Assembly: GCA_028277605.1 (NCBI GenBank)
Contig: JANQFZ010000084.1
Coordinates: forward strand, 1-64,000
Source: Vallitaleaceae bacterium
Lineage (GTDB): Bacteria > Bacillota > Clostridia > Lachnospirales > Vallitaleaceae
Direction: 5' to 3'
DNA: 64,000 nucleotides
Positions 7,918 through 27,228 of this stretch are shown here, one piece after another (position 1 is the first letter of the stretch; every line of letters begins with the position of its first letter). The position numbers and the translations under genes are program-made. The notes under the pieces are model-generated. The model was not told the DNA's origin. It worked only from the letters and a program-made list of their open reading frames with translations, and ran no database searches.

Positions 7918-9489
7918 CTATTCCCCCTTGCAGAAATCACATCTCATTGTAAATGAATAATGAACTTCTTGATTGTTATCAACTTCTTCTATGATAGCAG
8001 GTACATAAACAGATCTAAAATAGGGTAAATCTTTAATACTCTGTATAAATCTCGCAACCGTCATTTTATCCTTTGCTACGCAATTTAACATAAGCTGTTC
8101 ATTAGAATGATTCAAGCTTTTAAAAAATATATTCTCTGGCATTTGTTTTTCTATGGCTTCAATAATACTTAACATTTCTAAGGATGTATTATCTGATGAT
8201 GCCGATATACCTTTTAAAAACTCTAATTGTTCGGATAAAACTTTTGTGCTCTCCATTAAAACTGCGACTTCATGCGCTGCTTCTATTTGCTCCATCAATA
8301 CTTTTTTTTCATGCTTCATATGACTAATATGATTGAGCTGGTAAGTAACAAAAAGCACACTAGACAATCCTAGTAATATTCCCAGTTCAATCAATAATCT
8401 TAACTTATTTTTCTTTTGGCTTTTCTTCCTCACCGTATGAGGTAATAGATTTATCTTAGAATATGCACCACCAATGCAGATATGGAAAAAGCTATTAATC
8501 TCAGTGCTTTCTAATTCTTTGCTCTCCAACTGTGACATCTTCTCAAAGGTCTGTGTTTTGATATTAAAGTACTTTTCGATGTATTCTTCTATACCACATA
8601 GCTTTGAGCCGCCGCCTAGTAAATATATGTTGTTAATCTTATCAGAATGTCTAGTAGAAAAATAGTCTAATACTCTTGAAACCCCATTCAAAACTTGGTT
8701 TAATGGACTTGAAACAGTATTAGGCAGATAAGCATTAGAATCATCTTCTAATGTTATCAAAGCTTCTTCACAGAGCAGTTGACTCGCCTGTTCATAGGTC
8801 ACATCTCGAATAGCAGTTACTTTCTCAACCACAGCACTTACACCGTAGGGCATATTACGTAACAGTTGTATTTTCTGTTCTGCAATAAATGCAACTTGAG
8901 TCGTTTCACTACCTAAATCTATTACCATCGCTGATTCCTTTAATTGCTCTTGCTGTATAAAGTGAGCAAGACTGTTACCAACATAATCAATGCTATGTAA
9001 TCTTAGCCCTAAATGGTCGGTTAATTCAACATAAGACTCTACATGAGAGGATAAAGCAGCTACCAATTGTACTTTATATTTTTTTTCCTGTTTATTATGA
9101 ATTGTATCAACTATAGCATAGTCTACTATGTACTCATCTAGGTTCACTGGAAAATACTCTTGAACGTTCACTTGTATCAATGCTTTTAACTTATTTTTAC
9201 TCACTTTAGGAAGTTCCACTTCTCTTGTAATAATTCGAGTACTTGAAATAGAAAAAACAACCTCTTTTGTTTTGATTTGATGCTTTTCAATGGCTTTTCC
9301 TATTACTTTTTTTAAACCATCAATATCTATAAGCTTACCATCATGAATAGTATTGTCAGGCGTTTTTATTTTAACTGCATGCTTTAAAAACACCTTATTT
9401 CTTGTTCTAATCATTTCAGTAATCTTGATATGTTCCGATCCCATATCAATACTCATTAGCTTCTTAGAAAAAAAATCTGAAAAGGTCAT
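7918..9489 (-). CDS. pilM: PilM-PilN fusion, type IV pilus assembly
   Basis: A 523-residue protein joining two usually separate subunits. Residues 1 to about 350 are an actin-like PilM ATPase: MSIDMGSEHIKI phosphate loop, AMVIDLGSETTQVAF, and LGGGSKLCGIEEY. Residues about 355-523 look like PilN: the INLLP motif, a membrane helix (LLIELGILLGLSSVLFVTYQL), a coiled coil and a small alpha/beta domain. There is no stop between them. In most bacteria PilM binds the INLLP peptide of PilN, so here the contact is made in cis. It is followed immediately by pilO. Confidence 0.87.
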   Translation of the reverse strand: MTFSDFFSKKLMSIDMGSEHIKITEMIRTRNKVFLKHAVKIKTPDNTIHDGKLIDIDGLKKVIGKAIEKHQIKTKEVVFSISSTRIITREVELPKVSKNKLKALIQVNVQEYFPVNLDEYIVDYAIVDTIHNKQEKKYKVQLVAALSSHVESYVELTDHLGLRLHSIDYVGNSLAHFIQQEQLKESAMVIDLGSETTQVAFIAEQKIQLLRNMPYGVSAVVEKVTAIRDVTYEQASQLLCEEALITLEDDSNAYLPNTVSSPLNQVLNGVSRVLDYFSTRHSDKINNIYLLGGGSKLCGIEEYIEKYFNIKTQTFEKMSQLESKELESTEINSFFHICIGGAYSKINLLPHTVRKKSQKKNKLRLLIELGILLGLSSVLFVTYQLNHISHMKHEKKVLMEQIEAAHEVAVLMESTKVLSEQLEFLKGISASSDNTSLEMLSIIEAIEKQMPENIFFKSLNHSNEQLMLNCVAKDKMTVARFIQSIKDLPYFRSVYVPAIIEEVDNNQEVHYSFTMRCDFCKGE

Positions 9490-15239: not shown

Positions 15240-15314
15240 TTAATTCGACTTATTCTCTCCTGATAAGACTTTATACAACTTATTTAGCGCTTTCTTCTCT
15301 ATTCGTGATACATA
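15240..15314 (-). pseudogene. sigK: Detached 3' end of sigK (exon-like fragment)
   Basis: Read on the minus strand from 15314, the sequence encodes Y-VSRIEKKALNKLYKVL and seven further residues (ending NKSN) to a TAA at 15240. This is the missing end of sigma-K region 4.2; the Bacillus protein continues SRSYVSRIEKRALMK at the same point. It has no start codon or ribosome site of its own. It is not a dead fragment: joined at the TA core (15313-15314 with 26579-26580) it completes the reading frame of the 5' part. It is the outer flank of the intervening element's left junction. Confidence 0.93.
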
Positions 15315-15335
15315 CCCTGCAGCTAAAAAAGGGCA
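15298..15335 (-). other. Left junction of sigK-intervening element (att half-sites)
   Basis: The crossover dinucleotide TA is at 15313-15314. To its left is sigK coding sequence, to its right the element end CCCTGCAGCTAAAAAAGGGC (15315-15334). Together with the opposite junction it gives a palindromic attP. The boundary is set by where the sigma-K reading frame stops being conserved. Confidence 0.88.
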
Positions 15336-15489
15336 AAAAAAATATATTCTTTTTAAGCATTAGGTAATAAATAATTAAAAAACATACATTGCCTTAAATG
15401 ATACTTTTTAATATTTTCAAATAATTAATTTAGTCAATTAGCAGTTTAGTATTTATTCTCTAAGAAATAATTCTTTACTTTTAAGATAA
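15336..15489. other. AT-rich element end, no gene
   Basis: Between the left attachment site and the GNAT gene the sequence is very AT-rich, and I see no open frame or clear hairpin in it. It may hold recombinase accessory sites, but nothing shows that. Confidence 0.4.
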
Positions 15490-16050
15490 TTATCTATTAT
15501 CTTCGGTATTCAAATTAGGATTATAAAATCTATAATAGTAATACGGTTTTTCCTGTTCCTCTCCCGAATTTAATATGTACTTTTTACTTATTTTATTAAA
15601 TCCAGCTTTTTCTACTACTTTTTGTGAAGGGTAATTATCCAGCTCAACTATTGCTATTAAATAGTCTAAATGAAACTGATCCACTGCCCAATGACTCATA
15701 GCAATGCCAGCTTCACTCATGTAACCTTTGTTACTTTGGGATTCTGAAATAAAATAAGCAATTTCAACTTCATTATTGACTTCTTCTTTGTTTCCGACAC
15801 CGATCATACCTATTAATTCATTATTTTCTTTTAATTCTATTGCCATCATAATTCTTACATTCTCTTTGGTTGAAACTGTATACATCTGTTGAATCCACTC
15901 AATCCATTTTTCTCTTTGTTCAAGGGTGATATTCCAGTCTGGCATCCATTTCAAAATGTATGCTTCACTACATATCGTATGTAGTTTTCTTTTATCTTGC
16001 TTCTTGAATTCTCTTATACGTAATCTTTCCGTTTCAATACATAGTCCCAT
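15490..16050 (-). CDS. GNAT N-acetyltransferase (RimJ/RimL type)
   Basis: A 187-residue acetyltransferase. It opens with the typical IETERLRIREFKKQD and carries ELIGMIGVG, VEIAYFISESQSNKGYMSEA (acetyl-CoA-binding region, a variant of the Q/RxxGxG/A motif) and PSQKVVEKAGFNK near the C-terminus. The start at 16050 has GAAAGG upstream; a longer frame would overlap the recombinase gene by 29 bases. The substrate is unknown: protein N-termini, amines or antibiotics are all possible. It lies at the left end of the sigK element, downstream of the recombinases and in the same direction. Confidence 0.82.
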   Translation of the reverse strand: MGLCIETERLRIREFKKQDKRKLHTICSEAYILKWMPDWNITLEQREKWIEWIQQMYTVSTKENVRIMMAIELKENNELIGMIGVGNKEEVNNEVEIAYFISESQSNKGYMSEAGIAMSHWAVDQFHLDYLIAIVELDNYPSQKVVEKAGFNKISKKYILNSGEEQEKPYYYYRFYNPNLNTEDNR

Positions 16051-16138
16051 ATTTTTCAACCTTTCACCGTCAGCTAAGTTGGTACGAGTATCAACTGTAG
16101 TATACCATATCAATTTAAAAACTATCAACGTATACAAA

Positions 16139-17605
16139 CTAAAAACTATCCTCAAAATTCCATACAATTATTATTTTATTCTTATGCTCTATAATAATAT
16201 GGTCAATAAACACATCTACCATCTCTCTTGTTACTTCATTAAAGGGCTTAAGGATATCGGTATCTCTAACTATATTCTCACTAGTTTCTATAGCTAATTT
16301 TAAAAGTTCTATTTTTCCATTTACTTCTTTTATTTTATTCCTGATTTCAACTTCTTTACTTTCACTACTACTATTTTGCTGTTTAAAAACCTCAACAGAT
16401 AGACTACCACACTTATATGCTTTGTAATTATCAAATCGTCTATTTTGTAATTGTTGCAAGGAATTACAATAACCTTTGATTGTTCTTGCATACTTCCATA
16501 GTTTTTCTTGTCTATCTTGGTTTAAATCTATTTCATAATTAGTCAGTTGTTTGAATTTCTGTAGCAATAGAAGTACCACTTTTTCTATAATGGTATCATC
16601 GATTGGCTTATTAATACACCCTGCATACTTTATCTTGGATGTGAACAACTCCACATTCTTTTTTTTGGTCTTCTTTGCGTAATGTTTAAATAAGCTTTGT
16701 ACTTTATTAAAATCCTTACGACTAACTAATGCTTCATGGGCATCTTCTACTACAATCCATTGAGTTTCAGGAACTAATCTATCTTTTTTACTTCCTATTT
16801 CCTTTCTTAGATACTTTCCATAGACAGCATCTCCCACATACCTTCTATCTTTTAAGATTGCCTGTATTCTAGAACCTCTCCAATAAGTCATATCTTTAGA
16901 ACTATTACATGGGAACTGATTTTTTCTCTTTTTCCTTAACATAAGAGGAGATAAAATGCCCTCCTTGTTAAGAGCTTCTGCTATAGCGGTAGTTCCTTTA
17001 CCCTCTAATCTCATTGAGAAAATTCTTTTTACAACGTCAGCACTCACTTCATCTGGAATCAGCCTTTTTTCCTCGTTTTTTATAAATCCATAGGGCGCAT
17101 AGGCTGTCATATGTTTACCCTGTTTGGCTCCAGCTCTCTTAGCAGTTACTATTTTTTTTGATAGGTCTCTAGAATAAAAATCATGAACCACATTTTTAAA
17201 TACCACATCAATATCACCTGAATTGTGATTCAACTCATGGCTGTCATATGAATCATTGATGGAGATAAACCTAATCCCTAGAAAAGGAAAAATTTTCTCC
17301 ATGTATGTGCCTGTTTCTATGTAATTACGTCCAAACCTAGAAAAATCCTTAACGATAACACAATTGATTTTTCCGTATTTAGCATCTTCTATAAGAGCTT
17401 TAACCGCTTTTCTATTAAAATTTGTCCCACTGATTCCATCGTCTATGTATTCTTTTATTGTCCCATTTTTTAGCTCTGGATGATGATGTATGTAATCCTT
17501 TATCCGTTCTCTTTGGGATATAATACTATTACTATCACAATCAGATGTTTTGATGTCCTCTGAAGATAGTCTTAAATACATACCAATACAATAATCCTTA
17601 GTCAT
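16139..17605 (-). CDS. Large serine recombinase A (zinc ribbon lost)
   Basis: A 488-residue serine recombinase. The N-terminal catalytic domain has YLRLS (nucleophile Ser14), DDGISGTNFNR and VKDFSRFGRNYIETG. The recombinase DNA-binding domain follows (about 165-300, with KRIFSMRLEGKGTTAIAEALN and YWRGSRIQAILKDRRYVGDAV). The zinc ribbon seen in its neighbour is reduced to FTSKIKYAGCIN with one cysteine, then a coiled coil and a C-terminal IIIVWNFEDSF. It is third in a recombinase operon, 10 bases after recombinase B, with GAGGTG before its ATG. Likely part of a multi-subunit integrase/excisionase. Confidence 0.9.
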   Translation of the reverse strand: MTKDYCIGMYLRLSSEDIKTSDCDSNSIISQRERIKDYIHHHPELKNGTIKEYIDDGISGTNFNRKAVKALIEDAKYGKINCVIVKDFSRFGRNYIETGTYMEKIFPFLGIRFISINDSYDSHELNHNSGDIDVVFKNVVHDFYSRDLSKKIVTAKRAGAKQGKHMTAYAPYGFIKNEEKRLIPDEVSADVVKRIFSMRLEGKGTTAIAEALNKEGILSPLMLRKKRKNQFPCNSSKDMTYWRGSRIQAILKDRRYVGDAVYGKYLRKEIGSKKDRLVPETQWIVVEDAHEALVSRKDFNKVQSLFKHYAKKTKKKNVELFTSKIKYAGCINKPIDDTIIEKVVLLLLQKFKQLTNYEIDLNQDRQEKLWKYARTIKGYCNSLQQLQNRRFDNYKAYKCGSLSVEVFKQQNSSSESKEVEIRNKIKEVNGKIELLKLAIETSENIVRDTDILKPFNEVTREMVDVFIDHIIIEHKNKIIIVWNFEDSF

Positions 17606-17615
17606 AAGCTACACC

Positions 17616-18557
17616 TCATGAAAAGCTTTGAACTCTGTTGAAGATCTCCTCATCAATAATTGGCTCATGTGTATGTCTTATAAGTGTTATATCTTTTAAT
17701 TTTGTTTTATTATTGTGTTTTGATTTGTAAAGTGCTGTATCATATTTACGAAGAACAATCGCTCCAATATAATTCGGATTTTCTAATAGACTTTTTACTG
17801 TAGAACCTCTCCAAAGTGTTTTTTCTTCCCTATCTTTACTTCCCCTTAATCCTTTTTCCCACAGGTAACGATGCTGAGTAGGTATACCTAGATCATTGAG
17901 TCTGTGAGCAATGGCGGTTACACCCATTTGCTTTAGTCTTAGATTGAAAATCATAAGAATAACGTCTTTTGTCTCTTCATTTACTTCCAGAACATATTTA
18001 TTATGGGTCGATTTTTTATACCCATAAGGTGCATATCTACCAAGGAATTGACCACTTTTCTTTTTTGCATCCAATGTTGTGCATATTTTTTTTGATATAT
18101 CCTTAGCATAGCTATCATTAATGATTGATTTTAGTGCCGCCTCTAATGCTTGGTTATCGTTAACATACTGACTATCATAATTATCAGTAATAGCTATTAA
18201 ACGTACCCCAATAACAGGAAATATCTTTTCTATATACTGACCTGTTTCAATATAATTCCTACCAAGCCTTGACAAGTCTTTTACAATAATAGTGTTAATT
18301 AAGCTATCATTAATATCCCTGATTAAATGATTAAAAGCTACTCGATTAAAATGAGTTCCTGAAAAGCCATTATCCATGTATGTCTTTTTATAGGTCAACT
18401 CATTATGATGCTCAAGATAGTTTTTAATTATGCTAATCTGATTTTCTATAGATCCTCCTGTTTTATTATCTTCTATAGATAATCTTGCGTAAATGCCTAC
18501 TGTATACCTAGCACTAGAGGGTGGTTGTTGACGATGTTTTCTACTAACACGTGCCAT
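17616..18557 (-). CDS. Large serine recombinase B (short form)
   Basis: A 313-residue serine recombinase. The catalytic domain is complete (YARLS with Ser27, MDNGFSGTHFNR, VKDLSRLGRNYIETG), as is the recombinase domain (to about residue 300, LWRGSTVKSLLENPNYIGAIV). It ends after HEPIIDEEIFNRVQS, exactly where the zinc ribbon and coiled coil normally begin. The stop is followed 10 bases later by the next gene, so the C-terminal half is absent and not merely frameshifted. AAGGAGG precedes the ATG. It probably works only with a full-length partner. Confidence 0.9.
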   Translation of the reverse strand: MARVSRKHRQQPPSSARYTVGIYARLSIEDNKTGGSIENQISIIKNYLEHHNELTYKKTYMDNGFSGTHFNRVAFNHLIRDINDSLINTIIVKDLSRLGRNYIETGQYIEKIFPVIGVRLIAITDNYDSQYVNDNQALEAALKSIINDSYAKDISKKICTTLDAKKKSGQFLGRYAPYGYKKSTHNKYVLEVNEETKDVILMIFNLRLKQMGVTAIAHRLNDLGIPTQHRYLWEKGLRGSKDREEKTLWRGSTVKSLLENPNYIGAIVLRKYDTALYKSKHNNKTKLKDITLIRHTHEPIIDEEIFNRVQSFS

Positions 18558-18572
18558 GGCGTAAGCCTCCTT

Positions 18573-20159
18573 TTACAACTTAAAAGTATCCTCAAATCTA
18601 AAATTTATGATTATTTTTTTCTTATTCACAATAATAATTCTTTCTATCAGTAATACAATCAGTGCCCTCGTTATTTCTGTTATATTTTTATTTTCAATAA
18701 ATTCTTTAATCCTTTTACTTTTCCCTTTACTTTTAATAATATCGTCTGCTTGGTTTTGTAGATCCCTGAGTTGTTTTTGAATTTGAGAACTCCTCACTTC
18801 AAAAGCATCCTTCATATCATAATAATCTGTTTTAGTGATAATACCGTCTTTAACATCTTCATATAAACCTGCTATTAACTTCTTGTACTTCTCAAGCTCA
18901 TTTTCTTGAAAAACTATTCTTCTGTATACTTTTATGTATTGACTGTCATTCATCGGCATATTTTCATAAAAAATAAGCATTTCCTCAGCTTTGACTATCA
19001 GATTAATTAATGTATTTAAAACAGCAAGAACTGTTTTATTTAGTGATAGCTCGCTGATTCTATGGGAGGTACATTGATACTTATCTGCTTTATATGTGGA
19101 ACATATATAGTAAACATAGTCTTTAGTACTGCTTTTTACAGTTTTTCTTACCATTGTGTTCATGCAGTTACCACAGTACAATAACCCTGAAAAGGGATAT
19201 ACCATATCTCGCCTTTCGCTTCTCCTTGTATCAAGCTTAGCAATTGCTTCGACAAGACTAAAGCTATCTTTTGAAATGATAGCTGGATGCGTACCCTCAA
19301 CACGTATCCACTCTTCTTCTGGTTTAGTTATTCTTTTTTTTAGCTTGTAATTGATTCGTCCACTTCTTCCCTGTACCATAACACCTGTATACATTTCATT
19401 TTTTAGTATTCTCTCGATCGTACTGGCTGACCATTGGGCAGTTTTATGAACTTTGAAGGGATTTTTATAGGAGTAACCTAAGGCTTGTTTATATTCATAT
19501 GGAGATAAAATGCCTTGCTGATTAAGAACATCTGCTATTTTTCCTGTACTATAGCCTTTTATCCGCATTTTAAATATGTCTCTAACCACATCAACGGCAT
19601 AATCATCTATGATAAGCTTCTTATGATTATCTTTGGATTTAGCATAACCATAAAGCGGAAAGGAGCCTGTGTGTTCTCCTTTTTTTTGTCTTACTAAAAG
19701 ACTGCTTCTAACTTTTGTAGAAATATCTCTACTGTAGGAATCGTTGATAAGGTTTTTAAAGGGTATTAATAAACTATCTGTGATGGATTGGTTTTTTAGA
19801 CTATCATAACTGTCATTAATTGCGATAAATCTTACGGATAACAACGGAAAGAGCTTTTCAATGTATCTTCCAGTTTCTATATAGTCACGACCAAATCTTG
19901 ATAAATCCTTTACAATAATACAATTCACTTTACCATTCTTGACAAGATCGATCATCTCCTGAAAAGCAGGACGTTCATAATTGATACCGCTGTATCCATC
20001 ATCTACTTTTTCTGCTATCAGTTGGATATCAGGATTTTTTTTTAGAAAGGCATAGATTAATTCCCTTTGATTCGATACACTATTACTCTCTTTTTTGCAT
20101 CCATCATCCTTGGAGAGTCGAATATAAATAACGCCATTGTACTTTCTATCTGTTTCCAT
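18573..20159 (-). CDS. Large serine recombinase C (full length)
   Basis: A 528-residue recombinase with all domains: catalytic (YIRLS, Ser16; DDGYSGINYERP; VKDLSRFGRDYIETG), recombinase domain (about 165-300), zinc ribbon with CGNC followed by two more cysteines (YYICS, QCTSH; about 330-375), then a coiled coil (about 400-480) and an IIINFRFEDTF tail. This is the standard architecture of large serine integrases such as SpoIVCA, the skin recombinase. It is the only one of the three with an intact zinc ribbon. AGGGG precedes the start, and the DUF6870-like gene ends 10 bases upstream. Confidence 0.92.
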   Translation of the reverse strand: METDRKYNGVIYIRLSKDDGCKKESNSVSNQRELIYAFLKKNPDIQLIAEKVDDGYSGINYERPAFQEMIDLVKNGKVNCIIVKDLSRFGRDYIETGRYIEKLFPLLSVRFIAINDSYDSLKNQSITDSLLIPFKNLINDSYSRDISTKVRSSLLVRQKKGEHTGSFPLYGYAKSKDNHKKLIIDDYAVDVVRDIFKMRIKGYSTGKIADVLNQQGILSPYEYKQALGYSYKNPFKVHKTAQWSASTIERILKNEMYTGVMVQGRSGRINYKLKKRITKPEEEWIRVEGTHPAIISKDSFSLVEAIAKLDTRRSERRDMVYPFSGLLYCGNCMNTMVRKTVKSSTKDYVYYICSTYKADKYQCTSHRISELSLNKTVLAVLNTLINLIVKAEEMLIFYENMPMNDSQYIKVYRRIVFQENELEKYKKLIAGLYEDVKDGIITKTDYYDMKDAFEVRSSQIQKQLRDLQNQADDIIKSKGKSKRIKEFIENKNITEITRALIVLLIERIIIVNKKKIIINFRFEDTFKL

Positions 20160-20169
20160 TACAAAACCC

Positions 20170-20412
20170 CTATTCCATTATCCTAAAATACTCCATTAGT
20201 CTATCTGTAAGAGTCGTGTTACAATCGCTAAAAACGGATTCAACCATGATTCCATCACATTTGAATTGATATGGGTTTTTGATCTCCTCTATAAATCTCC
20301 TTAATCTTTCCTCCGGGTCTAAATCTGTATTGATTTTGATATCTTTAATATCTACTAATTCATCTATCGATGTATCTGTTAATGTTTCATTTTGGCTTAT
20401 CTTAGAACTCAT
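20170..20412 (-). CDS. DUF6870-like small protein
   Basis: An 80-residue acidic protein. The core DIKDIKINTDLDPEERLRRF followed by IEEIKNPYQFKCDGIMVESVF resembles the DUF6870 family, which I recall from clostridial mobile elements beside serine recombinases; that assignment is from memory. There is no membrane segment and no clear DNA-binding motif. It is the first gene of the recombinase operon, with ATAGGAG upstream of its ATG and 10 bases to recombinase C. Its position makes it a candidate directionality factor or regulator for the recombinases, which is inference. Confidence 0.72.
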   Translation of the reverse strand: MSSKISQNETLTDTSIDELVDIKDIKINTDLDPEERLRRFIEEIKNPYQFKCDGIMVESVFSDCNTTLTDRLMEYFRIME

Positions 20413-20484
20413 ATTGACATCTCCTATATTGCATCATGAAAGCTCTTACCAAAAATATATGTCTGTCATCGATTGTCTCATGCA

Positions 20485-20566: not shown

Positions 20567-22216
20567 TTAAAGCTCTAATACATACGCTTTTGCCTTATCT
20601 ACAATTGTTTTTGGAAAACCAATATGGCTCAATAATCTTATGGCATTTCTTGAGGTAGCAACCCCTTCTTTTACTTTATAATCAAAAACAATTTCGTTAT
20701 CTTGCATGATTTCAGTGAAGTGAAGGTTGTCATAATACTCTTTTAATAAACTAGTTAATTCTATATCATGTGAAGCTACCACTGCTAAGCAGTTCTCATC
20801 CTTAAGGTACCTTAAAATAGCAGCAGATGCAGCAATTCTTTCTTCGGTATTTGTTCCCCTTAGGATTTCATCAATAAAACATAGGGTTACTCTTTTACTA
20901 TTTAAAGTCATGAGGATTCTTTTCAGATATTTTATTTCTTTAATGTAGTAGCTTTCACCTGTTGTAATATTATCCCTTACTGCCATAGAGGTAATAACAT
21001 TGGCATGAGGAATATAAGCAGACTTAGCAAGACAAGTATTGATACTCTGTGCTAATATCATGTTGATGGCTATTGCTTTGATATAAGTTGATTTGCCAGA
21101 TGCATTTGAGCCAGATATAATACAGCTATTATCTAACAGGACGTCATTACAAACAGGTTCATCAATCAAAGGATGATACATATCCCTTATTTCAAGCGTA
21201 TGGTTTTTAGTGAACTTAGGAGTACAATAGGTAGGAACACTTTCTCTAAATGAAGCAATACTGATAGCTGCATCCATTTCTCCAATCAAAGTATACAACG
21301 AAATAAAGTCCTTTTTATTCTTTTCTAATATACTGATCACTTGATGAAAAACATGAAAATCCCAGAGCGTAGCACCAATCAAGTAGTCAATAATCATACC
21401 ACCAATATCACCCGTAAAAGAGCTCTCTTTTTTTCTTTGTATTAAAAAAATTCTATTGATTGCCTTTTTTAATATTTTGACTTTATTAAGAAACTCCTTT
21501 TTGTTATCAATAACGTTGTCTTGATCTTGAACGATAATGTCATGAGCAGCATTAACAACGTTTACAACAGTAGTTAACATTTCAATATGTAGTTCGCATT
21601 TATTTTTACCAAAAGTATAGAGAACCATGTTGGTGAGAAATAATACAAGGGTTAAAAGTACAAAAGGACCATTAAAAAGAATTGCAGGAAGAATAGAAGC
21701 TAATAGTGCAATACCCATCAAACGGTAACCCCATATATGCTTTAGCTTATAAGTGGATAAATCATGAATAAAAACCGGTAAGAAATAGCTGATTTTGCGC
21801 CTTCCCATTCCTGCAAGTTTATACTGTGTTTTTTGTCTTTTACTCTCATGCTTCTCTAAGAAAGTAACCATTCTATCTAATCTTTGCTTACTCTTTGTAT
21901 TCTTTTCTATAGCATGCAAGTGCGTATACAACACCTGTTCTCCTATAAAGGAATCACAATTATTGATTCTCTGAAACACTTTGTCCATATCCAAGTCATT
22001 CCAAGTGATGTCATCAATACAGTCATTTTCTTTATTAACTATATCTGTATAGCGGTATAGATGGTTAACGCTTTCATAGTCAAAGCCAAGCTTTGGTTTT
22101 TTTCCATATTTAGTTTTGATATGATATTGCAGAGTCTTTTTGTTACTTACTCTTGTATGAATACTGACACCCACGATGGTTAAGAGTATAGCTACAGCAA
22201 ATATTAATGCTTCCAT
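20567..22216 (-). CDS. Membrane-anchored MutS-like ATPase
   Basis: A 549-residue protein. An N-terminal membrane helix (residues 3-20) and a helix pair at about 165-205 are followed by a core domain and a MutS-type ABC ATPase at the C-terminus: Walker A GSNASGKST, ABC-like TTGESYYIKEIKYLKR, Walker B VTLCFIDEILRGTNTEER and the switch His in VASHDIEL. It lacks the mismatch-recognition domain of MutS1, so it is not a canonical repair protein. Similar proteins are common in Clostridia with unknown roles. It lies on the sigK element, as cargo, and ends in its own terminator. Confidence 0.85.
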   Translation of the reverse strand: MEALIFAVAILLTIVGVSIHTRVSNKKTLQYHIKTKYGKKPKLGFDYESVNHLYRYTDIVNKENDCIDDITWNDLDMDKVFQRINNCDSFIGEQVLYTHLHAIEKNTKSKQRLDRMVTFLEKHESKRQKTQYKLAGMGRRKISYFLPVFIHDLSTYKLKHIWGYRLMGIALLASILPAILFNGPFVLLTLVLFLTNMVLYTFGKNKCELHIEMLTTVVNVVNAAHDIIVQDQDNVIDNKKEFLNKVKILKKAINRIFLIQRKKESSFTGDIGGMIIDYLIGATLWDFHVFHQVISILEKNKKDFISLYTLIGEMDAAISIASFRESVPTYCTPKFTKNHTLEIRDMYHPLIDEPVCNDVLLDNSCIISGSNASGKSTYIKAIAINMILAQSINTCLAKSAYIPHANVITSMAVRDNITTGESYYIKEIKYLKRILMTLNSKRVTLCFIDEILRGTNTEERIAASAAILRYLKDENCLAVVASHDIELTSLLKEYYDNLHFTEIMQDNEIVFDYKVKEGVATSRNAIRLLSHIGFPKTIVDKAKAYVLEL

Positions 22217-22395: not shown

Positions 22396-23421
22396 TTAAT
22401 ATAACCCTAATTGACGTATATCATTCAATATTGGCCAAGCACCTTCACTAGTATTAGATATAACCGTTATTATGACCTCTTTATCTTGATGAATGAGTGA
22501 TTTAAATGATACGCCTGGATCACAGCCAACCATAGAGACTATAGTTGATTTATCCGATTTCTTATATAGCCATAAACCATAACCATGATAAGATTTCTCA
22601 CCATCACTTGTACTAATAACAGGTTTTACATAAGCTTCAACTAATGCTTTTGGTAAAAGCTGATAATTAAAAAAAGCATCCCATAGACGATACACATCCT
22701 CTACTGTAGTGAATGCACCCCCATCACCACCAGCAATAATTGGTAAATTATAGACATTAGTTTGCCAACTATCTCCTTTATCTATATAGCCATTAGCTGT
22801 ATTTTCTGGTAATTGATTTAAGGGAAAGAAACCAGAATGTTTCATATCAGCTAAGTTAAAAATATGCTGCTTTACATATTCTGTATAAGCCATACCTGAT
22901 ACTTGTTCAATGACAATTGCTAATAATATATAACCACTATTACAGTATGAGAATTTTTCACCTGGGTTAAATTTCATCTTTTCTTGAGGAAAAATAGGCA
23001 AATACTGTATAGGGCGCTTCAACTCATACCAAGGAATTGCTAATGTGAAGTTATTAAAATCATCTACTTTTTCTTCATCATAATAGTCTGGTAGTCCTGA
23101 TGTATGGGTTAATAGGTGTTCTATGGTTATGTTCTTAGAGTAAAGCGGAAAATCATATTTTACAATATCAAACACCTTTGTTTCAAGCGTTAATTGTCCT
23201 GACTGTACTAACTTACCTATCGCTAATGCTGTAAAAAATTTAGTTCCTGATGCAATTCCAAATCTTGTTTCTAAGTTATTGGGTATTTTATTACTTCTAT
23301 CTGCATACCCATAGGCTTTACTAAAGATGATATCGCCTTTTATTCTAATGGATATAACACCTGAAAAGTTGTTTTTATTCACAGAATCTGTTATGACATC
23401 ATGTATCCTTGTATTATTCAT
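22396..23421 (-). CDS. Beta-lactamase-fold serine hydrolase
   Basis: A 341-residue class C beta-lactamase-like or D,D-peptidase-like protein. Motifs: SGTK (SxxK, Ser58), YCN (YxN, in KFSYCNSGYI), HTSGLPDYY, and a C-terminal HGYGLW region standing in for the KTG element. No signal peptide is visible, so it is probably cytoplasmic. The substrate could be an ester or peptide. The start at 23421 has AAGGAG at ideal distance; the longer frame would start inside a hairpin (23474-23510). It is element cargo. Confidence 0.85.
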   Translation of the reverse strand: MNNTRIHDVITDSVNKNNFSGVISIRIKGDIIFSKAYGYADRSNKIPNNLETRFGIASGTKFFTALAIGKLVQSGQLTLETKVFDIVKYDFPLYSKNITIEHLLTHTSGLPDYYDEEKVDDFNNFTLAIPWYELKRPIQYLPIFPQEKMKFNPGEKFSYCNSGYILLAIVIEQVSGMAYTEYVKQHIFNLADMKHSGFFPLNQLPENTANGYIDKGDSWQTNVYNLPIIAGGDGGAFTTVEDVYRLWDAFFNYQLLPKALVEAYVKPVISTSDGEKSYHGYGLWLYKKSDKSTIVSMVGCDPGVSFKSLIHQDKEVIITVISNTSEGAWPILNDIRQLGLY

Positions 23422-23473
23422 AGAATCTCTCCTTAAACTTTTATCACCTAGAATCTTCAACTTCAAACTAAAC

Positions 23474-23510
23474 AATATGGCATATTACTTCTAAAATAAT
23501 ATGCCATATT
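23474..23510 (-). terminator. Hairpin between aminopeptidase and serine hydrolase
   Basis: A perfect 14-bp stem (AATATGGCATATTA at 23474-23487 with its complement at 23497-23510), 9-base loop. It lies just after the aminopeptidase stop codon. The following minus-strand bases are only moderately T-rich, so it may be a weak terminator or a processing hairpin. Confidence 0.5.
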
Positions 23511-23527
23511 CATAAATCGATTTAGTT

Positions 23528-25309
23528 TTATTCAATTGGTTCTGTGGCTAATTTCAGCCATGTCTCAATCTCTCCATCAACATAAGGTGATAGAGTTTCA
23601 TAAACAACCTGATGATAATCATTTAGCCATTGTATTTCCTCTGTTGTTAATAGACTGGGAACAATCGCTCTTTTATCTATTGGACAGTAGGAAATGGTTT
23701 CAAAATTCATAAACGTTCCCATTTCGTTAGATGTTTTCTCTTTCACAAGCATAACATTTTCAATACGAATACCGTGTTTGTTTTCTTTATAAATCCCAGG
23801 TTCATTGGTTAATACCATGTTTGGCTGTAAAACCACATTGGATTCTTTTCTTATCCTGCTTGGTCCTTCATGAACGCCAAGTGTATAGCCTACGCTGTGA
23901 CCTGTTCCGCTTTTATAATCCATATTTGCCGCCCATATCGGCTGTCGTGCGATAACATCTATGTTTGCACCCGTACTTCCATATAGAAAGGTTAATTTAG
24001 ACAATGCTATATGAGCTTTTAAAACTAGAGTATAATCCGTTTTTTCTTCTTCTGTTAAAGGTCCAACTGCAATGGTTCTGGTTATGTCTGTTGTCCCATC
24101 CAGATATTGACCGCCTGAGTCTATCAAAAACAAGCCCTTATTCTCAATAAGGGAAGAACTCTCTTCATTTGTACTATAATGCATCATTGCTGCATTTCCT
24201 GCATAGGCAGGTATGGTTTCAAAGCTTGGCTCAATAAATAAGTCTTGCTCTTTTCTAAAATCTAAAAGCTTAGATGAAGCTTGATGTTCTGTCAGCTTTC
24301 CTGTGGGTGCATTTTTATCAAACCAGTATAAGAAATTTACCATGGCTACGCCATCTCTAACTTGACAGTTTTTTAAATTCTTTTCTTCAACATCACTGAA
24401 TCTCGCTTTTTTCATATAAGTTAAGTCATCTGCTTCAATCACTCTATTGGTATCATTGATGGAAACAGCCATTAGACCATTCACTATATTTGGATCAATG
24501 AACACCTTTTTATTATTTAATTTTTTGAGATCTTCGTAGTAATTGGTATATGCTTTAAGGGTAACACCTTCTTTATTAAAATACTGCTTCATCGTCTCTG
24601 GTACTTTTTCCTCATTAATATACAAATATGCTTCTTCATCAGTTATTAGAGCATAGGCATAAGCGACTGGCGTAAATGAAATATCATGGCAGCGGAAATT
24701 AAATAGCCATGCAATATCATTAAGTGAATTCATAAGGTATGTATCTGCCCTATAAACAGTCATTTCCTTTCTAATATCAGCTATCTTTTCACTAATATGA
24801 GCACCTGTGAATTGGTATTCATGTAAGAAAATTTTATCATTAGGTAACTGAGGACGGTTTTCCCAAATCTTATCTATTAAATCCTTATCTTCACTATAGT
24901 TAATTTGCTTATATTTAAGATTATCTTTTATTTTTTTTACCTGATTATAACTGAATAAGCTAGCATCAAAACCTAAAGTCATACCATCATCTAAATGACT
25001 ATCCAACCATTCATTTAATGAAGGAACGCCTGGTTCTAACAACCGATACAAATCGATGGATGTCCCTTCAAGCTCCCTTTCTGCTTGTATAAAATAACGA
25101 CCATCTGTAAAAAGACCTGCCTCTTCTAATGTTACCACGGCTGTACCTGCCGAACCTGTAAAACCCGTTAAGTAAGCTCTGCTTTTAAAGTGCTCAGCTA
25201 CATACTCACTTAAATGTGAATCAGAGCTTGGAACAATATAGATATCTATATGCTCGTCCTTCATATGCTGACGTAATGCTTCTAAAATGTTTAATATGGT
25301 ATTTTTCAT
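23528..25309 (-). CDS. Xaa-Pro aminopeptidase (M24B)
   Basis: Removes N-terminal residues preceding proline from peptides, in the cytoplasm. About 593 residues from the start at 25309 (AAGGAGG upstream). There are two creatinase-like N-terminal domains (about 1-300) and the metal-binding pita-bread domain: LIDSGGQYLDGTTDITRT (two Asp ligands), GTGHSVGYTLGVHEGP (His) and LTNEPGIY (Glu), then RIENVMLV. Length matches eukaryote-like M24B enzymes common in Clostridia. It reads as a housekeeping enzyme, which makes its place inside the sigK element notable. Confidence 0.92.
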   Translation of the reverse strand: MKNTILNILEALRQHMKDEHIDIYIVPSSDSHLSEYVAEHFKSRAYLTGFTGSAGTAVVTLEEAGLFTDGRYFIQAERELEGTSIDLYRLLEPGVPSLNEWLDSHLDDGMTLGFDASLFSYNQVKKIKDNLKYKQINYSEDKDLIDKIWENRPQLPNDKIFLHEYQFTGAHISEKIADIRKEMTVYRADTYLMNSLNDIAWLFNFRCHDISFTPVAYAYALITDEEAYLYINEEKVPETMKQYFNKEGVTLKAYTNYYEDLKKLNNKKVFIDPNIVNGLMAVSINDTNRVIEADDLTYMKKARFSDVEEKNLKNCQVRDGVAMVNFLYWFDKNAPTGKLTEHQASSKLLDFRKEQDLFIEPSFETIPAYAGNAAMMHYSTNEESSSLIENKGLFLIDSGGQYLDGTTDITRTIAVGPLTEEEKTDYTLVLKAHIALSKLTFLYGSTGANIDVIARQPIWAANMDYKSGTGHSVGYTLGVHEGPSRIRKESNVVLQPNMVLTNEPGIYKENKHGIRIENVMLVKEKTSNEMGTFMNFETISYCPIDKRAIVPSLLTTEEIQWLNDYHQVVYETLSPYVDGEIETWLKLATEPIE

Positions 25310-25420
25310 AAAGTACCAGTCCTCCTTCTGCATTTGTAAAATCATTATAACAGAAACATAAATCTAATCATAGCCTAACGCTTATTATTGTTAACTACGG
25401 CTTTTAATAATTGTTTTCAC

Positions 25421-25624
25421 TTAATTAATTCTTGAATCTATATATCTATCAATATCTCTATTAATATATCCTTCTCCAGCTGTATGAAGTATATCATAAC
25501 ACTCTCTAATATAATTGAATACATCATTCTTTTCAAAAACTTCTAATGCATCCTTACCATTCATATGATGATTAAGTTTGTAGATTTCTAAGCAGAAAAT
25601 AGTGAAATCAATAATTCTATCCAT
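25421..25624 (-). CDS. Small DUF3791-like protein
   Basis: A 67-residue protein. The pattern IDFTIFCLEIYKLNHHMNGK, ALEVFEKNDVFNYIRECYDI, then LHTAGEGYINRDI fits the DUF3791 family, small helical proteins encoded beside DUF3990 genes. GAGGTG precedes the ATG, and the gene starts 11 bases after its upstream neighbour ends. It is the third gene of the DUF3990 trio. It may be a partner or antitoxin of the DUF3990 protein; this is inferred from gene order alone. Confidence 0.7.
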   Translation of the reverse strand: MDRIIDFTIFCLEIYKLNHHMNGKDALEVFEKNDVFNYIRECYDILHTAGEGYINRDIDRYIDSRIN

Positions 25625-25635
25625 AATTAATCACC

Positions 25636-25872
25636 TCATATCTGGGGATAACTTATTTTACCACTCTTTACTTCTTGCGAGAACATTTCAAATAGCTTTT
25701 CTGTGCTATACTGCCAGAATTTTGTTTGCTCTTTTTCCAATAATTCATATAGATGAGACAAATATAATTTTGTTATAGCATCTTTATCTGATATATTTAA
25801 TTCTATAGCAATCTTCTTAACTAAGTCTCCTATGATTATAGGAAGGATTGCATTAAATCTATCTTTATCCAT
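25636..25872 (-). CDS. DUF3791-like protein, putative antitoxin
   Basis: A 78-residue helical protein. Features: an ILPIIIGDLVKKIAIELN helix, then DAITKLYLSHLYELLEKEQT and a WQYSTEKLFEMF segment, as in DUF3791/related partners of DUF3990 genes. The start at 25872 follows a strong GGGAGGGAA site lying within the end of the DUF3990 gene. The DUF3990 stop is at 25874, so the two are translationally coupled. Coupling and small size suggest an antitoxin; no activity can be read from sequence. Confidence 0.68.
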   Translation of the reverse strand: MDKDRFNAILPIIIGDLVKKIAIELNISDKDAITKLYLSHLYELLEKEQTKFWQYSTEKLFEMFSQEVKSGKISYPQI

Positions 25873-25873
25873 T

Positions 25874-26365
25874 CTATTTCCCTCCCAAAAACACATAACT
25901 ATTAAATAAGCAGAATTCTAATGCTAGATTTGTATGAAATAGTATTTGATCATATAACTTTACTACTTTTAATCTTTTTATTGCTTCTTCTTTATTAAGA
26001 ATACCTGTTTCAAAAAGCTTGACTGTACTATATACATTGTCATCTGCTACAGGACCAATTATTATATCATACTCACTACTTATATCTCTTCCCCTTCGAT
26101 TTGCAGTAATAAAGTCCAGCCATTCTCCATTAGCATGAAGATATTCAATAATATGAAGTTTTTCTTTTGCTTTTTCTATATCAAATTGGTAGATAGATAA
26201 ATATTTGTTCTTAGAATTATTCCTTAAGCTTACCTTTTTTGCCCATCGTATAGCTTGTTCTTTATTACTGGTTGTATAAAACCCTGTTCCAAAATCTAAT
26301 AATCGATTACTCTTTAATACCATAGGTTTATCAACAATTACATCGCTACCATGATAAATATTCAT
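25874..26365 (-). CDS. DUF3990 protein, putative ADP-ribosyltransferase toxin
   Basis: A 163-residue DUF3990 protein. The start MNIYHGSD, the central DFGTGFYTTSNKEQAIRWAKK and the later SEYDIIIGPVADD fit the ART-like fold (H-Y-acidic type), placing it near ADP-ribosyltransferase or RNA 2'-phosphotransferase-like enzymes. GGAGGGG precedes the start. Together with two small downstream genes it forms a toxin-antitoxin-like cassette at the right end of the sigK element, next to the attachment site. Toxicity is inferred from family and context. Confidence 0.75.
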   Translation of the reverse strand: MNIYHGSDVIVDKPMVLKSNRLLDFGTGFYTTSNKEQAIRWAKKVSLRNNSKNKYLSIYQFDIEKAKEKLHIIEYLHANGEWLDFITANRRGRDISSEYDIIIGPVADDNVYSTVKLFETGILNKEEAIKRLKVVKLYDQILFHTNLALEFCLFNSYVFLGGK

Positions 26366-26526: not shown

Positions 26527-27195
26527 TTAACAAATAAACACTTCCTGTTTACTATTTAGCCCTATTATCCTCGCAGAGTAAGATCGTGAAATTCCTAGCA
26601 TATCAGCAATCTCTCTCTGTGTTTTTTCCTTACCATTAAACAATCCATATCTAAGTTCAATGACTGTCTGTTCTCTATTTTTTAGTACATCCTTCATTTT
26701 ATCATAAAGCTGTCGTATTTTAATTTTTAAATCGACTTGGTCAATGATTGCTTCATTTTGTGTTTCTATCACGTCTATTAGACTAATTTCGTTACCTTCT
26801 TTGTCTATTCCTATAGGTTCTTGCAAGGATACCTCCTTGGTCTTCTTCTTCTCAGATCTAAGCATCATTAGAAGCTCGTTTTCTATGCATCTTGCAGCGT
26901 ACGTAGCTAAACGGGTGCCCTTGTTAGGATCATAAGTCATGATGGCTTTGATGAGACCAATAGTACCGATAGAGATGAGGTCATCCATATCTCTATCTGG
27001 GGTATTATACTTTTTGACTATATGGGCAACCAATCTGAGATTCCGTTCAATAAGAATATTTCTTGCTTGGATATCACCATTCTTGCATTTAATGAGATAG
27101 GTTTTTTCTTCATCGCTACTTAAAGGCTTAGGAAAAGACTGTGAAGCTGTAAAATAAAATCCTGGTAGAATAAAAGATATAAAATTAAAAAACAA
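26527..27195 (-). CDS. sigK: Sigma-K 5' part, interrupted by skin-like element
   Basis: Pro-sigma-K without its last 23 residues. Visible: a hydrophobic pro-sequence (FFNFISFILPGFYF), FPKPLS, region 2 (NLRLVAHIVKKYNTPDRDMDDLIS core, then ATYAARCIENELLMMLRS), the sigma-K signature DKEGNEISLIDV, and region 4 up to QREIADMLGISRSY. After Tyr216 (ATG numbering) sigma-K homology ends and 15 element codons lead to a stop at 26527. I choose the TTG at 27195: it has AGAGGTG upstream, and the sigma-E-like promoter would start transcripts near 27222, making the ATG at 27225 (no ribosome site) unlikely. Joined to 15240-15314 the protein is 229 residues (239 from the ATG). Confidence 0.92.
   Translation of the reverse strand: MFFNFISFILPGFYFTASQSFPKPLSSDEEKTYLIKCKNGDIQARNILIERNLRLVAHIVKKYNTPDRDMDDLISIGTIGLIKAIMTYDPNKGTRLATYAARCIENELLMMLRSEKKKTKEVSLQEPIGIDKEGNEISLIDVIETQNEAIIDQVDLKIKIRQLYDKMKDVLKNREQTVIELRYGLFNGKEKTQREIADMLGISRSYSARIIGLNSKQEVFIC
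26558..26595 (-). other. Right junction of sigK-intervening element (att half-sites)
   Basis: TA core at 26579-26580. The element arm (26558-26578, beginning AGCCCTATTATCC and ending CGCAGAG) lies to the left, and sigK coding sequence (AGATCGTGAAATTCC, complement of GISRS codons) to the right. The arm is the inverted partner of 15315-15335. Confidence 0.88.
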
Positions 27196-27228
27196 AACAA
27201 AAAGCACCTCTATATATGTATTCATAAT

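Follow-up and report, generated by a model that had tools for sequence, protein, structure and literature searches.

The three tandem serine recombinase genes in the 64,000-nucleotide stretch of DNA that was analysed (the window) belong to a skin-type element that interrupts the sporulation gene sigK. Two of them have lost the zinc ribbon by deletion. From the comparison of these genes with their homologues we lean towards a reduced but working triplet, in which the complete recombinase I528 would take the lead and the trimmed M313 and E488 would still take part.

A skin-type element interrupts sigK

The window holds a mobile element of 11,266 bp that cuts sigK in two near the 3' end of the gene, at the junction between SRSY and VSRIEK. 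The features that delimit the element are:

26579-27225, minus strand: 5' part of sigK (71% identity to the intact sigK of G004 and G010; Sigma70 r2 and a cut r4)
15240-15314, minus strand: 3' end of sigK, absent from the 5' part (YVSRIEKKALNKLYKVLSGENKSN, then stop)
26579-26580: attL, left core dinucleotide TA (from the reading frame of the joined flanks and a comparison with empty sites)
26555-26578, minus strand: P-type arm of attL, CTCTGCGAGGATAATAGGGCTAAA (similar arm in G527, G107, G125, and G153)
15313-15314: attR, right core dinucleotide TA (flank comparison and joined frame)
15315-15338, minus strand: P'-type arm of attR, TTTTGCCCTTTTTTAGCTGCAGGG (matches TTTAGCCCTTACTTG..GTAGGG of G527 and G017)

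The 5' part lies in an ORF (26527-27225) that reads 16 codons plus a stop into the element, and the joined flanks give a sigK of 239 codons, in frame and without a stop. The empty sites are provided by G010 and G004, family members that lack the insert and in which an intact sigK immediately precedes pilB and a U32 peptidase gene comes next; pilB and the 5' part of sigK are 11.3 kb apart in the window. The ends of the element carry inverted but not identical arms around the core (TTTTGCCCT...TA...AGGGCTAAA). The sigK-side arm is also present in G527, G107, G125, and G153, where it ends in AGGGCTAAA (AGGGATAAA in G107) at a similar distance from TA, i.e., the P-arms are conserved across five genomes. 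The skin premise of the original prediction therefore holds: the halves of the split sigK join in frame, attL and attR share a short TA core flanked by inverted arms, and serine recombinases are encoded inside. The host has kept spoIVA.

Besides the recombinases and the gene that heads their operon (see below), the element encodes the following cargo, all on the minus strand:

25874-26365: DUF3990 protein (immediately downstream of E there is a similar cassette in G017 and a DUF3990 homologue in G527)
25636-25896: small protein of the DUF3990 cassette (no Pfam match)
25421-25624: second small protein of the DUF3990 cassette
23528-25345: M24 peptidase (aminopeptidase P type)
22396-23475: beta-lactamase-fold protein
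20567-22216: MutS-like ATPase
15490-16167: GNAT acetyltransferase (true start probably near 16050)

The DUF3990 gene and the two small genes (25421-26365) adjoin attL. We rejected their assignment to the flanking chromosome because they lie within the element in the window. The cassette may be recurrent cargo, since a close cassette occurs downstream of E in G017, as does a DUF3990 homologue in G527.

Three recombinases, one of them complete

The recombinases are named by their position in the triplet, I (internal), M (middle), and E (external):

18573-20159, minus strand: recombinase I, I528, 528 aa (has every part: catalytic and recombinase domains, Cys4 zinc ribbon, C-terminal region)
17616-18557, minus strand: recombinase M, M313, 313 aa (catalytic and recombinase domains only)
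16139-17605, minus strand: recombinase E, E488, 488 aa (retains the coiled-coil region; in-frame deletion of the ribbon)

The ORF list agrees with the predicted tandem of three genes, which share a strand and are separated by 15 bp (I–M) and 10 bp (M–E). A readthrough fusion of M and E was considered and rejected because the two genes are in different frames. Each of the three adjoining genes falls in its own positional clade (FastTree), and they thus form an I/M/E triplet. The catalytic domains are intact, as predicted: PF00239 matches all three proteins, the catalytic serines are S16 (I), S27 (M), and S14 (E), and S14, S27, and the arginines of the SRxGR motif are invariant in the alignments with homologues. 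I528 also matches PF07508 and PF13408 (the latter with 55 bits); M313 and E488 match PF00239 and PF07508 only. Within the trio, the Cys4 ribbon was indeed found in I528 only, the one protein in which the catalytic, recombinase, zinc ribbon, and coiled-coil parts are complete; M313 lacks the ribbon and the coiled coil, and E488 lacks the ribbon. A scan of Viral_contigs revealed no relatives of full-length M, and tblastn searches of plasmids and phages gave no match of at least 40% identity (all were below 40%).

Both short proteins arose by deletion, because the closest homologue of the triplet, that of G527, has full-length M and E with ribbons. M313 aligns with the proteins of G527 and G017 up to residue 312, after which the alignment resumes only at the final codons and the ribosome-binding site of the gene that follows; about 230 codons are missing, encoding the ribbon and the coiled coil. 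The GAGGTG motif ahead of E, which resembles a ribosome-binding site, survives this deletion. In the predicted model and the alignment, M313 ends as soon as the final helix of the recombinase domain is complete, in line with the claim that this protein stops before the ribbon. Relative to homologues of 519 aa, E488 has lost about 32 codons in frame, spanning the ribbon, and what had been described as a ribbon remnant is a lone cysteine. The E488 model retains long helices, which we read as the coiled coil; the predicted models have mean pLDDT values of 64 and 68, i.e., low confidence overall. Their best Foldseek matches are serine integrases. Between the window and G527, dN/dS is 0.13 for I, 0.12 for M, and 0.16 for E, so that the remaining regions of M and E are about as constrained as I, with dS near saturation. 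The ratios come mostly from the time before the deletions and would be compatible with a recent decay of M and E.

Related triplets at the same sigK site

The original prediction had proposed a search for three-gene blocks beside split sporulation genes. Related triplets were found at the exact sigK site in four other genomes (G527, G107, G125, and G153), and as a relic in G017. The element of G527 extends across at least about 50 kb of sequence on two contigs (L105 and L158) and encodes ParA, ParB, and a TraG-like ATPase; its three recombinases have ribbons, with an M of about 540 aa and an E of 519 aa. The L105 record (JADPRS010000006.1) is named Lutibacter (Bacteroidota) but is probably mislabelled or contaminated, because the genome has spoIVA and a clostridial-type sigK region. 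The element of G107 is about 8 kb long and has three ribbons. In this genome sigK has a second interruption besides the triplet element between SRSY and V, namely a 4.2-kb insert with a single recombinase near codon 108 (L159 2557-7410; L075 near 4050).

The element of G125 (35.6 kb) has an M of 318 aa and lies in the opposite orientation at the same sigK site (L074, G125:C1:2235995-2272229). The TA core is palindromic, and both orientations of insertion would therefore be possible. The I gene of G125 has a frameshift next to six consecutive A (L074 near 8650-8990), which may reflect a sequencing error, decay, or programmed slippage; we set it aside as proof of decay because an error is plausible next to such a run. 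G153 carries an element similar to that of G125, with an M of 479 aa in which the ribbon is present and much of the coiled coil is gone. In G017, one sigK is intact, and the triplet sits in a second, degenerate copy, its I gene broken next to transposase-like genes; we hence rejected G017 as a working relative and class it as a relic. Finally, G053 has a one-recombinase skin at the same sigK codons.

Loss of the ribbon across triplets

All three recombinases have ribbons in about 33 of the 38 or so triplets surveyed, a count in which L071 was scored as intact by a longer cysteine motif and L032, whose gap split the run, was added by hand. M lacks the ribbon in the window, in G125, in G102, and at two loci of G056, and E lacks it in the window and at the G056 loci; among these approximately 38 triplets, no I without a ribbon was found that was otherwise intact. 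In the clean cases, M ends within about a dozen residues of the end of the recombinase domain. G125 and G102 share this domain border as the place of the cut, and E follows immediately in both. The G056 cases are less clean, and we down-weighted their short M genes (draft genome, repeat-like insert after M in L032). At another locus (L097 3960-7106), an apparent inversion, either real or an assembly fault, splits M and places E and the C-terminal part of M on the other strand.

The FastTree phylogeny separates I, M, and E into deep position-specific clades, with the short M genes scattered within the M clade, and the trimmed subunit differs from lineage to lineage. Counted by hand, at least five of seven ribbon losses are in M (probability about 0.05 for M alone, about 0.14 for any position), which suggests, without proving it, a bias towards M. 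Two streptococcal middle recombinases (L174 7655-9328 and L175 5143-6812) have zero zinc-ribbon cysteines; that of L174 is full length despite this, and the fragment in L175 agrees. Taken together, the cuts of M at one border in separate lineages and the cysteine-less streptococcal M make the ribbon of M look repeatedly dispensable.

The graded loss of the ribbon had been put forward as a built-in design. The closest relatives and most triplets of the survey have ribbons on all three recombinases, and the gradation is therefore a lineage-specific deletion state; as judged from these alignments, it is derived and does not define the system. The prediction had also named dispensable shorter genes as an outcome that would speak against it: this is shown only for the C-terminal domains.

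A candidate regulator and promoter

Two features precede the triplet:

20170-20412, minus strand: DUF6870 protein, 80 aa, heading the recombinase operon (PF21757, 80 bits)
20454-20483, minus strand: candidate sigma-E-like promoter GCATGAG-N15-CATATATT, overlapping a SpoIIID-like box (pattern and spacing as in L105 and L075)

A DUF6870 gene lies ahead of the triplets in most of the surveyed loci, which were partly picked by the presence of this gene. Its product is a possible directionality factor or regulator. The pattern GCATNRG-N15-CATAYATT with an overlapping SpoIIID-like box, upstream of DUF6870, is common to the window, G527, and G107; it is weaker in G125 and G153, and two triplets outside sigK score equally high on the promoter part. 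The match to sigma-E and SpoIIID sites is based on general consensus sequences and on few sites. Control of the DUF6870-I-M-E operon by sigma-E and SpoIIID is thus suggestive only.

How the triplet might work

In the scenario that we favour, sigma-E and SpoIIID would probably switch on the DUF6870-I-M-E operon in the mother cell. The three position-specific recombinases would then recombine attL with attR across the TA core, the element would be excised, and sigK restored. I528, the sole complete enzyme, would provide the zinc ribbon and lead the reaction. M313 and E488, which derive from full-length M and E by internal deletion, would most likely still serve as catalytic subunits at half-sites and be able to do without their C-terminal parts.

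A serious rival, which we consider possible if rather less probable, is that I528 works alone, like SpoIVCA or CD1231, and that M313 and E488 are decaying and contribute nothing. M and E lack domains found in all close homologues, a single recombinase occupies the same sigK site in G053 and serves the skin of C. difficile (PMC5025042), the gin element needs just GirC of its three recombinases (PMC5595907), and the triplet is decaying in G017, where sigK is intact elsewhere. However, M and E keep long open frames, catalytic residues, and a constraint like that of I; M has been truncated at one domain border more than once, in different lineages, and I, M, and E are retained together in about 33 triplets. 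The repeated ribbon loss in M, the antiquity of the position-specific paralogues, and the inverted yet non-identical att arms would also fit the model of the original prediction, an obligate, specialised hetero-oligomer in which the ribbon-less M and E have taken separate new roles (arm binding, direction). We regard this as improbable: most triplets, including the nearest ones in sigK, have three full-length subunits, the trimmed subunit varies by lineage, and the position bias is based on few events. Even less probable is an element that is stuck in a host that no longer sporulates, with the whole module drifting. The shortening of two of the three recombinases would be expected from this, but the host has an intact spoIVA, no stop interrupts the joined sigK frame, and the I gene and the two att arms are undamaged.

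Compared with the reduced triplet led by I528, a more speculative and on balance unlikely extension is a three-part recombinase in which M is a protein of catalytic and recombinase domains, I (and partly E) supplies the ribbon and coiled coil, and the composition helps to set the direction of sporulation-programmed excision. According to one report (PMC10754689), deletion of the coiled coil inactivates the phiC31 integrase, whereas the coiled coil of the LI integrase is auxiliary and controls direction; a trimmed subunit is therefore plausible, not assured.

Comparison with known systems

The element combines two known things, skin elements and serine recombinase triplets, that were not found together in the papers searched: in the open-access literature covered, no sigK element with a recombinase triplet was described. 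The series at one sigK site, from full-length through middle-trimmed and doubly trimmed triplets to the single enzyme of G053, is a natural domain-deletion series. It allows one to ask which subunits and zinc ribbons excision needs.

The skins of B. subtilis (SpoIVCA) and C. difficile (CD1231) likewise split sigK, carry a serine recombinase gene near one half, and would restore sigK upon excision (PMC5025042). They have one recombinase, which in C. difficile acts with the directionality factor CD1234 (PMC5025042); in contrast, and as the original prediction had it, the element in the window has three, in a DUF6870-I-M-E arrangement with two subunits shortened. Streptococcal integrative and conjugative elements (ICEs) carry triplets that resemble it in having three adjoining same-strand recombinases of the I, M, and E clades and short terminal direct repeats (Ambroset et al. 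2016, PMC4701971). Their targets are mutT, traG, and hsdM, whereas that of the window is the sporulation gene sigK. Some of their members lack PF13408 (PMC4701971), which a cysteine-less M may explain in part; the streptococcal M that we inspected kept its length without the cysteines, whereas M313 is physically cut. In SCCmec, too, a single element is acted on by more than one large serine recombinase (CcrA and CcrB, seen here as NCBIfam matches), but these are two genes with another target, and the match in the window scores 80 bits against an equivalog cut-off of 900. Like the element in the window, the gin element of Bacillus cereus ATCC10987 interrupts a sporulation gene (gerE) and has three serine recombinases inside; it is a non-phage element excised in sporulation, and its rearrangement requires only GirC and the 42-aa GirX, so that two of the three recombinases are dispensable (PMC5595907). 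The gin genes form a girA-girB operon and a distant girC and are 22–26% identical (PMC5595907), whereas those in the window are paralogues in a tandem triplet.
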